Below, piece after piece: positions 1-44,374 of a DNA stretch of 64,000 nt. The notes below the pieces were generated by a model. That model saw only the letters and a list, made by a program, of their open reading frames with translations. It did no database searches and had not been told where the DNA came from. How positions within the stretch are numbered: the stretch's first letter is position 1; every line of letters starts with the position of its first letter. The position numbers and the translations under genes are program-made. The DNA is from a virus, in IMG/VR virus record IMGVR_UViG_3300025695_000007, positions 1-64,000 of that record; one strand, written 5' to 3'.

Positions 1-93
1 GAAATGCCAGCATGGTATCAATACACACTTAGCGTAATTGTTGCAGCATCATTTGGTGTACGAGCAGCAGTAGGATTTATGGGCAAAAAATGA
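1..93 (+). CDS. C-terminal end of a probable holin (cut by window edge)
   Basis: An open frame enters from the left edge and encodes 30 residues before a TGA at 91-93. The visible part begins EMPAWYQYTL, continues as a hydrophobic stretch of about 20 residues rich in Val, Ala and Gly, and ends in GKK, so it is the last membrane helix of a small membrane protein with a positively charged tail. The stop overlaps the ATG of the lysozyme gene (ATGA). Small membrane proteins translationally coupled to a phage lysozyme are usually holins, which let the endolysin out of the cytoplasm. The family cannot be named because the N-terminus is missing. Confidence 0.6.
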   Translation, partial: EMPAWYQYTLSVIVAASFGVRAAVGFMGKK

Positions 94-536
94 ATGTAGA
101 CAGACTACAAAAGCAGTTAGAAATTGATGAAGGAGTTAAATATGTCATCTATGTCGATCACCTCGGTTACCCGACATTTGGTATCGGACATAGAATTACT
201 AGGGATGATAAAGAATATTGGGATCCACTAGGTACTGAAATATCTGAAAAAAGAGTAAGAACTGCTTTTGAAACAGATCTCTGTATAGCAGTAGGAGACT
301 GCGAAGCTTTATACGGAGAAAGATTTGGTAGCTGGCCTTCAGAAGTGCAAGAAATTTTGGTTAATATGATGTTTAATATGGGAAGAACTCGTATGAGAAA
401 GTTTAAAAATATGAAAGCAGCATTATTAGAACAAGATTGGAAAACCGCAGCAAAAGAAGGGAGGGATAGTAAATGGTATAACCAAGTACCAAATAGGGCT
501 GAAAGGCTTATGTCTCGACTGGAAAATGTTTCTTGA
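90..536 (+). CDS. T4-type lysozyme (GH24 endolysin)
   Basis: A 148-residue muramidase that cuts the glycan strands of peptidoglycan at lysis. The catalytic triad of the T4 lysozyme family is visible with identical spacing: Glu14 in IDEG, Asp23 in YVDHLG and Thr29 in PTFGIGH (T4: 11, 20, 26). Length is close to the 164 residues of T4 lysozyme. There is no signal peptide or N-terminal anchor, so it needs the holin encoded just upstream, whose stop codon it overlaps. A second, unrelated cell-wall hydrolase lies at 62270-62653. Its end nearly touches the next promoter: the -35 at 533-538 overlaps the stop codon. Confidence 0.93.
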   Translation: MNVDRLQKQLEIDEGVKYVIYVDHLGYPTFGIGHRITRDDKEYWDPLGTEISEKRVRTAFETDLCIAVGDCEALYGERFGSWPSEVQEILVNMMFNMGRTRMRKFKNMKAALLEQDWKTAAKEGRDSKWYNQVPNRAERLMSRLENVS

Positions 537-561
537 CAAAGTGTCTCCATTTTAGTATAAT
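533..561 (+). promoter_or_regulatory. Sigma70-type promoter P1
   Basis: TTGACA (533-538), 17-base spacer, TATAAT (556-561): a perfect consensus promoter preceded by TTC. It should start transcription at about 568 and serve the 589 and thyX genes. It lies inside the inverted repeat 542-551/571-580. Confidence 0.9.
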
Positions 562-580
562 ATATTCTACAATGGAGACA
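542..580 (+). repeat. Inverted repeat around the P1 -10 box, enclosing the ribosome site
   Basis: Perfect 10-base arms TGTCTCCATT (542-551) and AATGGAGACA (571-580) are separated by 19 bases that hold the -10 box. The downstream arm contains the GGAG ribosome site (574-577) of the gene starting at 589. RNA that reads through from upstream would pair the arms and cover the site; RNA started at P1 (about 568) lacks the first arm. It could also act as a DNA operator. Confidence 0.75.
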
Positions 581-588
581 TAACCTCA

Positions 589-1188
589 ATGAATTTATTT
601 TATTTAGACCAAGACCTGGATAAGTGTGCGCAGTACCATGTTGACAAGCATATAGTAAAAATGCCTTTAGAAGTAGCACAGCTAATGTGTACCGCAATAT
701 GGGTAGATGCTCATCTAGGTTTTGTACCTCGAGCTCTTAACAAAGAAGAGCGTGACCACCTCAACGAACTTAAGAAAGAAATCAAACACCTTTCTATGGA
801 AGAAAGACCTCTTACACCTTACCTGCCTATGATGTACAATCACCCCTGTACTATATGGGTGCGTTCGTCTTTAGATAACTTTGAGTGGACACACTGTTAC
901 GGCAATGCTCTGAATGATGAGTACTACTATCGCTATGGCAAGCAGCATAAGTCTATAGTTGATGTAGTAAACAAACTACCTGAGCCTAAGAATATGCCTA
1001 GGAATGGTTTTACTACATTCGGCTTAGCAATGCCAGACGATTTAAAAGACTATGATAATCCTATACAATCGTACAGAGATTATTATCACTTAGATAAAGC
1101 AACCTTCGCTACTTGGTCACATAGAGATAGACCTGAGTGGTGGGACGACAACTACGCAATGTATGACAGAAGGATAACTGCAAAGTGA
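589..1188 (+). CDS. Conserved phage protein of unknown function
   Basis: A 199-residue cytoplasmic protein beginning MNLFYLDQDL. It has the blocks YHVDKHIVKM near the N-terminus, NHPCTIWVRSS in the middle and DEYYYRYGKQH further on, a pattern I recall from many marine phage genomes, where it has no firm function. The Asp, His and Tyr/Trp-rich blocks hint at a metal- or nucleic-acid-binding enzyme, but this is not established. It follows promoter P1 and overlaps thyX by four bases (GTGA), so it is probably cotranscribed with nucleotide metabolism. Its GGAG ribosome site (574-577) lies in the second arm of an inverted repeat. Confidence 0.75.
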   Translation: MNLFYLDQDLDKCAQYHVDKHIVKMPLEVAQLMCTAIWVDAHLGFVPRALNKEERDHLNELKKEIKHLSMEERPLTPYLPMMYNHPCTIWVRSSLDNFEWTHCYGNALNDEYYYRYGKQHKSIVDVVNKLPEPKNMPRNGFTTFGLAMPDDLKDYDNPIQSYRDYYHLDKATFATWSHRDRPEWWDDNYAMYDRRITAK

Positions 1189-1832
1189 AAGTTAAACTAA
1201 TCAGCCATTCAAAAGGAATGGGAGGAAATACATTACTAGAAGATATAGCATATATTGCGCGAGTATCTAACCCTAGTAATCAAAACAATACAGCTACGTC
1301 AGAAAAGTTAATACGATATCTTATCAAGCATAAACACTGGTCTCCTTTCGAGATGGTATCTGTGTGCATGGAGATTGAAACTACTCGTGACATAGCAAAA
1401 CAGATACTACGTCATCGCAGCTTCTCCTTTCAGGAGTTTAGTCAGCGATATGCTGATCCTGAAGACCTAGGAGTATTTGTACTTCGAGAAGCTAGGATGC
1501 AAGACACTGAGAATCGTCAGAATAGTATTGAGTGCGATAATCTACACGTTGCAGCTTTTTGGGAAAACTCTCAGAGAAATGTAATCAGTGCTGCTCAGAT
1601 GGCGTATGAGTATGCTATCAAATCAGGTATAGCAAAAGAGCAGGCTCGTGCAGTACTTCCAGAGGGTTGCACGCCTACGCGTATGTATATGAACGGAACT
1701 CTACGAAGTTGGCTTCATTACATAGAAATCCGTAGCGGGGTCGAAACACAGAAAGAACATCGAGAAATAGCTCTAGAAGCTGCCTGTCAATTGAGTCCGA
1801 TTTTTCCTATGATAAATGAATTTATTAGTTGA
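1185..1832 (+). CDS. thyX: FAD-dependent thymidylate synthase ThyX
   Basis: A 215-residue flavin-dependent enzyme that methylates dUMP to dTMP using methylene-tetrahydrofolate and NADPH. The ThyX signature is clear: RHRSFSFQEFSQRY, matching RHR followed by the conserved Ser and SxRY, within a conserved N-terminal context (HWSPFEM). Near the C-terminus the blocks ARAVLPEG and LRSWLHYIEIR are those of the nucleotide-binding half. Length is normal for the family. The GTG start overlaps the upstream gene. It supplies dTTP for replication together with the ribonucleotide reductase at 19110-21849. Confidence 0.95.
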   Translation: MKVKLISHSKGMGGNTLLEDIAYIARVSNPSNQNNTATSEKLIRYLIKHKHWSPFEMVSVCMEIETTRDIAKQILRHRSFSFQEFSQRYADPEDLGVFVLREARMQDTENRQNSIECDNLHVAAFWENSQRNVISAAQMAYEYAIKSGIAKEQARAVLPEGCTPTRMYMNGTLRSWLHYIEIRSGVETQKEHREIALEAACQLSPIFPMINEFIS

Positions 1833-6560: not shown

Positions 6561-6574
6561 TATAGTTTCATCAG

Positions 6575-6605
6575 GCGCTAGTTATTTTGACTAGCGCTTG
6601 TTTTT
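6575..6605 (+). terminator. Intrinsic terminator before the helicase gene
   Basis: GCGCTAGT (6575-6582) pairs with ACTAGCGC (6590-6597) across a 7-base loop and is followed by TTGTTTTT. The helicase starts only 24 bases later with no promoter in between, so the terminator probably attenuates rather than blocks. Confidence 0.9.
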
Positions 6606-7986: not shown

Positions 7987-8015
7987 TTGACACTTCTGCT
8001 ATTTTTTAGTATAAT
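7987..8015 (+). promoter_or_regulatory. Sigma70-type promoter P6 (replication operon)
   Basis: TTGACA (7987-7992), 17-base spacer, TATAAT (8010-8015), preceded by TTC. It should start at about 8022 and drive the run of overlapping genes from 8050 through 14016. It lies inside the inverted repeat 7996-8037. Confidence 0.9.
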
Positions 8016-8037
8016 ATACATATTAAATAAATAGCAG
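7996..8037 (+). repeat. Inverted repeat around the P6 -10 box, enclosing the ribosome site
   Basis: Perfect 9-base arms CTGCTATTT (7996-8004) and AAATAGCAG (8029-8037) flank the -10 box. The second arm overlaps the start of the AGGAG ribosome site (8036-8040) of the gene at 8050. Read-through RNA contains both arms; RNA started at about 8022 contains only the second. This is the same geometry as at 542-580. Confidence 0.72.
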
Positions 8038-8049
8038 GAGTTTTTCTTT

Positions 8050-8340
8050 ATGATGGTTTTTACGGATAACCGTTACAGACCAATTTCTCGTAAACGTAAA
8101 AAGTTGCCCCCCAAACCAAAGCGAACTAAGCCTAAGTTTGTACCCTATGTCCCTTCATCAAAGGTATTTCGTAGGGAAACTCCAGATTACCCATCTGTAG
8201 TATCAAAGTCAACAGACCTCACTAAAGAAGACGACAGCTATAAGTTAGAAGTGTCTAAGAAGTACACTTTAGCCCCTGCCTACAACAAAGGCGCTTATCA
8301 AGTAATTAGTATAGACAATGTGGAGCATATAGGAAAATAA
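8050..8340 (+). CDS. Conserved small phage protein, function unknown
   Basis: A 96-residue protein. Its first 45 residues are very basic and Pro-rich (RKRKKLPPKPKRTKPKF), then comes FRRETPDYPSV, a block I recall from small proteins near the replication genes of marine podo- and siphophages. The second half is neutral. The basic tail suggests nucleic-acid contact. AGGAG lies nine bases upstream of the chosen ATG, inside an inverted repeat. The stop overlaps the next start (TAATG). Confidence 0.65.
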   Translation: MMVFTDNRYRPISRKRKKLPPKPKRTKPKFVPYVPSSKVFRRETPDYPSVVSKSTDLTKEDDSYKLEVSKKYTLAPAYNKGAYQVISIDNVEHIGK

Positions 8341-43200: not shown

Positions 43201-44374
43201 TGCTTGAGTTTGAGTCCAATAGACGAATTATTGCTACTTGAGCAAAGTTTGTTCTATCATACTCCATTGCAGCAGTAAATATTCCAGTACTGGAAGTAAT
43301 TGTTACAGAGTTTGCAGACCCCGTTACTGAACTACGAACAACAGAAGCTGAGCTCGAGCCATAGTTTCTTACAATAATAAACTTAGTACCATTTTCAGTA
43401 TCGGCTTCTATATCTTTAGTATGCCCATTTCTATCGATAGTTACAGAAGTGCTATTAAGTGTAAAGTCAAACTCTACTGGAGTTTCTGATAATCTTACAA
43501 AACTTTGTGCAGTTACTTGGGCAGGGTCGTCATTTAGAAATACAGAAGTACCTCCATCTACGAGTCCATAGATAGGGCCTTCTGAGATGATATCAGTAAA
43601 AAGAATGTCTTGGCTATTTCTAGATGCAGTTACGCCTGTTATAGGATCTATTACTTGGCTTATATTTCCGCCGTTTCTCTCCATCTGGTCTTCGAAGTAT
43701 CCTTCTATATCACCTTTTGGAAGATTTATTATTTCTCCATTGTATGTTATGGTATTGTCACTAGACGTGATTCTCTTTGACCCATGAATCATTTCAAAAG
43801 ATACAGGATATCCAGGAACACGAAGCTCTCCATAAAGAAGAGGAATAGGCATACCTTCGACAATGTTTTGTTCTGCTCCATTAAATAAGTAGCCTTCATC
43901 TTCTTGATCTACTGCAGGGTCAGGAGCCATAAGTTGCTGAATGCCAGTTATAGCTAGGTTTGTTGCTAAAGCAAGAGCAGCATTTGCCAAAGTGGCAGGT
44001 ACCCAACTAGTAGTGACAGAGGTCATATAGGTATAAAGACTCATTCCTCCAGTTGGTATAAATAGTATTGCAGCAATCAATGCTGCTGTAAGAATCTTGG
44101 CTCCCCCAGATTTAGAACCGGCAGCAATAGGAGTAATAATTATATCGCCTTCACGAAGAGGCAGTAAACATTCTAAGGGCGAGTCAAGTTCCTGTCCGCC
44201 AACTTCAATATGAAAACCAATATCACACTCAGCAGCATCTATAAAATATTTCTTAAGTCCAGGCTTATTTGCATCTAGTAGACGCAGGGCATCCTTAACG
44301 CTATCTCCATAAAAAGAGTGCTGTGCTCCAAATTTTAAAGCGAGTTCGCCTTCAAGATAAATGCTACGTTTCAT
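37226..44374 (-). CDS. Tail-tip host-specificity protein: gpI-gpJ fusion with S74 chaperone domain
   Basis: A 2382-residue protein, twice the length of lambda J. Residues 1-210 look like lambda gpI: a ubiquitin-like start (ELALKFGAQHSFYGDSVKDA), GSKSGGAKIL, a hydrophobic Ala/Gly-rich stretch (about 95-165) and GMPIPLLYGELRVPG. The gpJ hub region follows, then an FN3-like segment (near 1245), further beta domains, four GGYGSSGVT repeats and a C-terminal S74-type intramolecular chaperone (YSDVKLKQN, GLIAQDVLKILPEAVG, GLLIEAIKELKAEVEEL). The S74 domain would trimerise the spike and then cut itself off before the Ser of SDVKLK. It lies at the distal tail end and binds the host. Confidence 0.88.
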   Translation of the reverse strand: MKRSIYLEGELALKFGAQHSFYGDSVKDALRLLDANKPGLKKYFIDAAECDIGFHIEVGGQELDSPLECLLPLREGDIIITPIAAGSKSGGAKILTAALIAAILFIPTGGMSLYTYMTSVTTSWVPATLANAALALATNLAITGIQQLMAPDPAVDQEDEGYLFNGAEQNIVEGMPIPLLYGELRVPGYPVSFEMIHGSKRITSSDNTITYNGEIINLPKGDIEGYFEDQMERNGGNISQVIDPITGVTASRNSQDILFTDIISEGPIYGLVDGGTSVFLNDDPAQVTAQSFVRLSETPVEFDFTLNSTSVTIDRNGHTKDIEADTENGTKFIIVRNYGSSSASVVRSSVTGSANSVTITSSTGIFTAAMEYDRTNFAQVAIIRLLDSNSSTVFEGYVESYTSSTVAKCIPLPGMDLNPALSNGTYTVVVDGKFQVSSISSNTLTLASNFPGNTGSYKCDLSGTSYETVSLIDRVSSGSKHNSFDVQFRNGNLIQPAFSDAAGTGVGSIALGPGGSFSPFSPVLYADTGETDNPTVEYTGTSASGFGLTTAQAEEVDEVRVTFTYGQLWNRNEKGEQTAATVRYNMYVAVERDGAFGAYQNITQNVEHLAQSNAPRIFEEIIDMRQYQPFTDFKVKITRTTNNDQAYNAGTNTVNTNYTTQSDGSITSLNSIIKENLSYPLTAMAKVRINSKDFQNVPTRTYHCKGIKVKVPSNYVTRDEGVNSTATYNRNVSTGAITSSYQDWDGNFRADKVYTNNPAWVFYDILTNNRYGLGDWLNEDEIDKYALYRIARYCDELVPDGAGGFEPRFTTNVYFTQASDAYKIVKDLATVFRSMIYWMDGEVYTVTDQPGDPIYNFSKSNVIDGAFGYETTGSKTRANQIVVTWNNPAANYKLENLIVEDRDNIINTGRIISEEAVAFGATTEGQALRYGRWKLWTAVNQTELVSFKTAINAAFIAPGDIINVQDSDRYPGNLKYSGRVSNTGTRNTTTIPLDREIELNSGSDYELSVLFTDSVATLAQESATIGTVSYSRGDVIEGATIDTENEASNILDDSGDYVDVTWKPYTNVETQTVSTASGTGITSLTVSGAFSTTPSAESVWVLKESISGVEVEGSKKMYKILSISEESKNIYGITAVEFYNEKYAAVDDNFVLSTQDPVFSPPDSTESIPAPRNAYVIISDLNSGQLKDDVILSWDNPLDSNGNVYDYIDYFEVSGNIPGFPTTLKVSRNQTSLSGLDLPIGTFTLAVRTVAQNGRRSDTTKTTFTIEDPARQAVPRVFGMALGGVLSSPAFVTSVGTFTLEDKAYSLSPIGNPQLVRTFDGIPVTEYTQDCSTIPSLDFSTFTNDEAELASHYIMIDGDDTDPLKLIKYYKDQDLGYGYFYNAGTGNTTHTSNWTSIGTVSVSADSNKVTGSGFDTSLQVGDIIKFSSTQAAKVVYIASATDVRIDKSFSTAISSVEAYRNEFRFNKNDDSVIYSVRNDSGTFKAYPINLAINPDLGKSPRNVILTVNPTFLNFDGDEVLTTNYTNLILTATAFGYKNPVFKFTGTGFDNSEISQTADTVFSAGTNFVATKTLDKVDEYSLTDLVFSVTVAEELDESNTNKQSTADITIPFVKDGAAGGAGKLVRLTSNDYSVVYDDTGANPSPSGTLTFTATASNFTDPYFKFTGDGITDETSYTDGTGDSDTFSYTIPSLSSGWAGNPLSIRVGVAEAAAPTTEIAFDTISIFYVADGVDGDDGIDGYTVVMTNAAHSFTADSSGTVSTYSESGTSIEVYKGGVELNSVTGTPAAGQFSVSVSASNITAGTTSVTGNPFTIGDHSNMTADTALITYTLNIENLVTGTQKQTFSKSSAGTNGLPGATGANGLRRAEGYLYYQSAGTPATTPSGIYTWSTGAVSGTNIGTGSTQWNTIPPEMGAGTSAQYYVRRWKALETTANSTSTGLSIDSATLGHNFAGVVTFSSGTGTGGSNELEYNGATVTQIDGGFIQTNTLTVDKIKSGVRTVETDYSFGLSTTGIAVESTNYTTAGLFTTTDTTNSTALVAISTAGTSSTSAAAFASTSGIVASFYKNSTASWADNNDMVVKIGEGTSAFLVRQNGLPTLEVATGGQIYIGGGSFYDGTTLTKTTSHFRGTARVDGIFDTYSTTNFAGGYGSSGVTISDTGSGSFNGNLIVDGSITAGSFNPTSLNVGGGYGSSGVTLSSTGSGSFDGNVIVKGTFSSGSTSTFAGGYGSSGVTISSTGSGSFNGSLTVDGSAYFGGGYNDTGITLQSDGTGLFALNLVVGGAITAGGNITAYSDVKLKQNLEVIPNALEKVSALTGYTFDRIDTGESQTGLIAQDVLKILPEAVGHTEDGTLTLAYGNLVGLLIEAIKELKAEVEELKNDSSN
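37600..37960 (-). repeat. Repeated GGYGSSGVT beta units in the tail-tip protein
   Basis: Three close copies of the unit GGYGSSGVT(I/L)S.TGSGSF(N/D)G and one diverged copy (GGYNDTGITLQSDGTG) lie just before the S74 chaperone domain, spaced roughly 105-120 bases. They would build a short trimeric beta-helical shaft. Confidence 0.65.

Follow-up and report, generated by a model that had tools for sequence, protein, structure and literature searches.

The window, a stretch of 64,000 nucleotides, is part of a 78,691-base IMG/VR record of a marine phage that we classify, on the basis of its sequence, as T5-like. A 127-base direct repeat is found at window positions 1–127 and again at the end of the record, and the genome is therefore probably closed at about 78,564 bases. 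When we compared the gene order of the window with that of DT57C (NC_027356), an E. coli T5-like phage that also served as our reference for T5-type promoters, we found the T5 early order from position 2154 on (D2, D3, a split NAD ligase, D5, DnaB, primase, polymerase and SbcCD), and the DNA polymerase is 43% identical to those of T5-like Vibrio and enterobacterial phages. A strong terminator-like hairpin (6572–6600; 13 pairs, then TTTTT) lies between the D5-like and the DnaB-like helicase genes, and there is no obvious promoter before the latter. Predicted genes are on the + strand over a stretch that runs from position 74,292 of the record past its end and on to 21,849. The lysis region is directly preceded by three genes for proteins with CxxCH heme motifs (74747–78067 of the record; L084:11247–14564); one protein matches cytochrome c (PF00034, 6e-8), PHROG and Pfam searches with the other two gave no match, and all three are possible auxiliary metabolic genes.

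Near the left end of the window, a lysozyme gene is followed by a promoter, P1, and by two genes, the second of which is thyX (Table 1). The boxes of P1 are spaced by 17 bases and match the consensus at 12 of 12 positions, the lysozyme stop codon (534–536) falls within the –35 box, and ATATT directly follows the –10 box. ATATT at this position is a motif reported for T5 early promoters, which have short leaders, and all temporal classes of T5 (pre-early, early and late) use host sigma-70 promoters (PMC7472727). An earlier note on this DNA had called P1 a host-type rather than a late phage promoter, and the complete sigma-70 match in a T5-like phage bears this out. The perfect 10-base arms that the note had described are also present: TGTCTCCATT (542–551) is the exact reverse complement of AATGGAGACA (571–580), the –10 box (556–561) is between them, GGAG is inside the second arm, and a G–U pair (541/581) lengthens the stem to 11 pairs. 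The expected start of transcription, about 7 bases past the –10 box, is predicted to lie in the loop of the hairpin, so that RNA made from P1 would lack arm 1, as had been proposed. The gene under P1 begins with the ATG at 589. We found a candidate ribosome site of its own for thyX; thyX is possibly coupled to the 589 gene, and its silencing would then come about only through that coupling. Arm 2 of P1 also contains a three-codon frame over the ribosome site (ATG GAG ACA TAA, 572–583), which is absent from the related locus L004.

Table 1. Positions of the P1 and P2 promoter hairpins and their neighbouring genes in the window.
Feature	Position	Strand	Basis or remark
Lysozyme gene (Phage_lysozyme)	90–536	+	PF00959 8.8e-7; PHROG tail lysozyme/endolysin
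–35 box of P1, TTGACA	533–538	+	Promoter match
P1 arm 1	541–551	+	Perfect part 542–551; 541 forms G–U pair with 581
Inner stem of P1 hairpin	553–555/567–569	+	Fold prediction
–10 box of P1, TATAAT	556–561	+	Between the hairpin arms
Expected P1 transcription start	567–569	+	Deduced from position of –10 box
P1 arm 2	571–581	+	Perfect part 571–580
Shine-Dalgarno GGAG	574–577	+	Within P1 arm 2
Gene under P1	589–1188	+	phrog_624 DNA-binding protein; weak Pyr_excise similarity
thyX	1185–1832	+	PF02511 8.6e-43; 4-base overlap with preceding gene
P2 consensus promoter	7987–8015	+	TTGACA 7987–7992, TATAAT 8010–8015
P2 arm 1	7992–8012	+	Fold prediction
P2 arm 2	8020–8041	+	Fold prediction; contains AGGAG 8036–8040
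96-aa gene under P2, no assigned function	8050–8340	+	phrog_4593 2e-4

To describe the hairpin energetically, we computed folds with 37 °C energies, leaving translation of the upstream gene out of the prediction. The region 520–620 folds with –23.8 kcal/mol as compared to –14.9 kcal/mol for shuffled sequences (z = –3.0), and the predicted cost of opening GGAG is 2.0 kcal/mol in P1's own RNA and about 14 kcal/mol in read-through RNA. A ribosome halting at the lysozyme stop codon might overlap part of arm 1 and so briefly open the hairpin. The 64-kb window contains four inverted repeats with perfect 10-base arms and loops of 3–25 bases, as compared to an expectation of 1.8; the P1 repeat alone is therefore unremarkable, a point in favour of the view that the hairpin has no function and reflects chance pairing of purine-rich leaders with AT-rich spacers that contain pyrimidine stretches. 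What matters is position rather than length, and it is remarkable for such a repeat to be centred on one of the window's 12 strong promoters and to cover its ribosome site. Among these 12 promoters, pairing between the –35/–10 spacer and the leader stands out only at P1, where the arm-to-arm duplex is 5.8 standard deviations beyond shuffles (z = –5.8), and at a second promoter, P2 (position 7987; z = –7.3); the other ten do not stand out.

P2 has the same layout as P1, with unrelated arm sequences, and opening its ribosome site is predicted to cost 2.9 kcal/mol in its own RNA as compared to about 9.5 kcal/mol in read-through RNA. A Pfam search with its 96-aa gene gave no match. The P2 stem comprises 21 pairs closed by a 7-base loop, a size that would suit a structure acting on the upstream RNA, such as an intrinsic terminator or attenuator, a 3'-end stabiliser or an RNase III site; insulation of the downstream gene would still result, because the read-through RNA would end or be cut there. 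The U-runs right after the stem at P2 and at the loci L089 and L152 also fit such a role; however, there is no U-run at P1 (where CATAACCTC follows the hairpin), L087 or L076, the stems are AU-rich, and a terminator scan reports neither P1 nor P2. Coverage of the ribosome site, which is common to all cases, argues against it as well, although this coverage is partly unavoidable given the short leader. We consider action on the upstream RNA unlikely for the two hairpins. An intrinsic terminator was rejected for P1, which has no GC-rich stem followed by a U-run and does not appear in the scan, and we leave a terminator role open for P2. The scan found no terminator from the lysozyme gene to P1; further upstream there is a strong terminator near 74,865 of the record, and on the + strand from there to P1 we found no terminator-like site except a weak one inside a coding region.

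To see how the elements vary, we compared them with those of related phages. A lysozyme gene directly precedes P1 in seven loci, one of which, L001, has nearly the same sequence as the window, and all seven have a strong P1 fold (–17 to –22 kcal/mol); in 35 loci with a different upstream gene the fold is weaker (–4 to –13 kcal/mol), an association that is confounded by descent. Within the lysozyme group, pair 543/579 is G–C in three sequences and A–U in four, a full compensation, and the inner pairs vary by wobble. The covariation score of P1 exceeds slid controls; however, 56 of 500 column shuffles reach it, with few sequences and few variable positions, and we therefore regard the covariation as suggestive. 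At P2, we compared pairs directly (a MAFFT alignment misplaced arm 2) and found one pair that is C–G in the window, U–G in L085 and U–A in L086–L088 with the stem retained, so that P1 and P2 have one fully compensated pair each. In the more distant L089 and L152, wholly different stems of 14–15 pairs cover the ribosome site at the P2 position. These compensated changes fit pairing and not a fixed binding site, and thus weigh against a DNA operator, in which a dimeric regulator of the phage or the host would bind the two arms flanking the –10 box and control P1. It is common for an operator to be an inverted repeat around the –10 box, and a D5-like regulator gene is present; however, the arms of P1, P2 and the DT57C elements described below are wholly different and share only CTC or CTCC, the motif complementary to the ribosome site. 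Because of this, we rejected an operator as the main reading and consider it very improbable. When we searched phage records for sequences similar to the P1 element, all matches were weak and promoter-like, and one of them, in Enterococcus, showed no comparable repeat by eye.

To ask how general the pairing is, we assembled a non-redundant set of 96 promoters from the group (80% clustering limit), each with a ribosome site. Promoters paired with their own arms at –6.7 kcal/mol on average as compared to –5.4 kcal/mol with swapped arms, and none of 10,000 permutations was as low (p < 0.0001); seven of the 96 have a rank below 0.01. The gain in masking of the ribosome site in long over short RNA was 2.1 kcal/mol, as compared to 1.1 kcal/mol with shuffled spacers (Wilcoxon p = 0.001; p ≤ 0.05 in 19 of 96). 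These p-values are approximate, since promoters with shared ancestry below the 80% limit may remain in the set. The masking gain is driven by a minority of promoters and the mean effects are modest; the majority of the group's promoters have no strong hairpin.

In six of the 29 promoters of DT57C, the own spacer pairs better than any swapped one (binomial p = 0.0004). These elements precede T5.090, T5.058, T5.053, llp, the holin gene and an HNH endonuclease gene, and for five of them the predicted opening cost is 2–4 kcal/mol in the own RNA as compared to 10–18 kcal/mol in long RNA. The holin element is the weakest against shuffles (0.075). All 26 relatives that we found retain the T5.090 hairpin; one of them, L191, we take to be T5. 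At llp, the upstream gene is not co-directional and the hairpin is weakened in most relatives. The holin and HNH homing endonuclease spacers, which are complementary to their leaders, are on the – strand of NC_027356 at 19145 and 40196; the HNH gene sits between nrdA and nrdB, an arrangement that recalls mobE of phage Aeh1. In the first 50 kb of Vibrio phage pVp-1, we found no excess of own-arm pairing (p = 0.74). A single strong promoter-in-hairpin candidate is present in pVp-1 (L224) at 44003, upstream of a small gene (CTCTCTTATTT / AAATTAATGAGAGAG). Since pVp-1 has no excess and most promoters have no strong hairpin, we rejected the hairpin as a universal feature of T5-like promoters. The result for pVp-1 and the modest group-wide averages speak for an absence of function; in contrast, two independent sets (the 96 promoters and DT57C) show better pairing with own than with swapped arms, and complementarity is kept or rebuilt despite sequence change. 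Overall, chance pairing is an improbable explanation.

Taken together, these data make it reasonably likely that P1 and P2 carry a cis-acting translational insulator whose layout is reused in T5-like phages with unrelated arms. RNA started at P1 would begin in the loop, without arm 1, so that GGAG is free and the 589 gene is translated, whereas RNA entering from the lysozyme side would have both arms and fold once arm 2 is made, hiding GGAG. The 589 gene would thus be translated solely from its own promoter; P2 would work like P1, and related T5-like phages would use the layout at several promoters. We infer that the purpose would be to keep early nucleotide and repair genes off while the lysis genes are transcribed. 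The earlier note had proposed that read-through RNA folds and silences the 589 gene. Geometry, predicted energetics, conserved complementarity, recurrence and the lack of a terminator support this proposal in part; as a possible source of read-through RNA, we found no convincing promoter, late promoters included, on the + strand between the 74,865 terminator and P1. Silencing of read-through RNA is the most economical reading because it explains the start in the loop, the motif complementary to the ribosome site, the freedom of the arms and the recurrence.

Similar arrangements are found in transposable elements. In IS10/Tn10 and IS50/Tn5, a host-type promoter lies within the element, and external transcripts fold so that the ribosome site of the transposase is hidden. 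P1 resembles them in its host-type promoter and in a ribosome site hidden in incoming RNA; however, IS10 and IS50 shield a transposon from neighbouring genes, whereas P1 would keep units of one lytic phage genome apart. We found no paper on read-through protection in IS10 in the open-access literature, an absence that is weak evidence. In phages, promoters inside an RNA hairpin have been described for T4 e, soc, 49, I-TevI and segB and for Aeh1 mobE, with the ribosome site hidden in long RNA and free in short RNA, an effect of about 100-fold being reported for gene e; the e and I-TevI hairpins contain late promoters (PMC3014915, PMC2988022). As in the e/soc/I-TevI type, the promoter of P1 lies between the arms or over arm 1, and the ribosome site is predicted to be masked only in long RNA. 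In the T4 cases, late or mobile genes that form part of early RNA are served by a phage-specific late promoter; in contrast, P1 is an early-type consensus sigma-70 promoter that serves a nucleotide or repair gene downstream of a lysozyme gene. Because of the 12/12 consensus and ATATT, P1 would work like the e/soc late-gene subtype without being a member of it; and because an early-type promoter with the ATATT of T5 early promoters follows a lysozyme gene, its use is likely opposite to that in T4, and the temporal order would be inverted. A further difference from the T4-type cases is that one genome has several promoters with this layout. We judge P1 to be a probable RNA-level insulator of the e/soc/I-TevI type that is placed on sigma-70 promoters and used repeatedly.

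More tentatively, it is possible that T5-like phages, T5 included, have a set of promoter-in-hairpin insulators, unrelated in sequence, that define private translation units and leave read-through RNA silent. T5 early promoters resemble P1 in being sigma-70 promoters with ATATT after the –10 box, and the T5.090 promoter of both DT57C and T5 has a hairpin. The open-access literature yielded no paper on hairpin promoters in T5, which is weak evidence of absence, and hairpins are unmentioned in the T5 promoter paper, which states that the switch between temporal classes is unknown (PMC7472727). The hairpin promoters are of interest mainly because they recur in T5-like phages and can be tested in T5 at the T5.090 promoter. 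If the reading is true, part of the temporal separation of T5 would be set at translation, in cis and without any protein, which would help a phage with one sigma factor to hold its temporal classes apart, and the hairpin would offer a small, naturally occurring device for the insulation of genes where a genome is densely packed.
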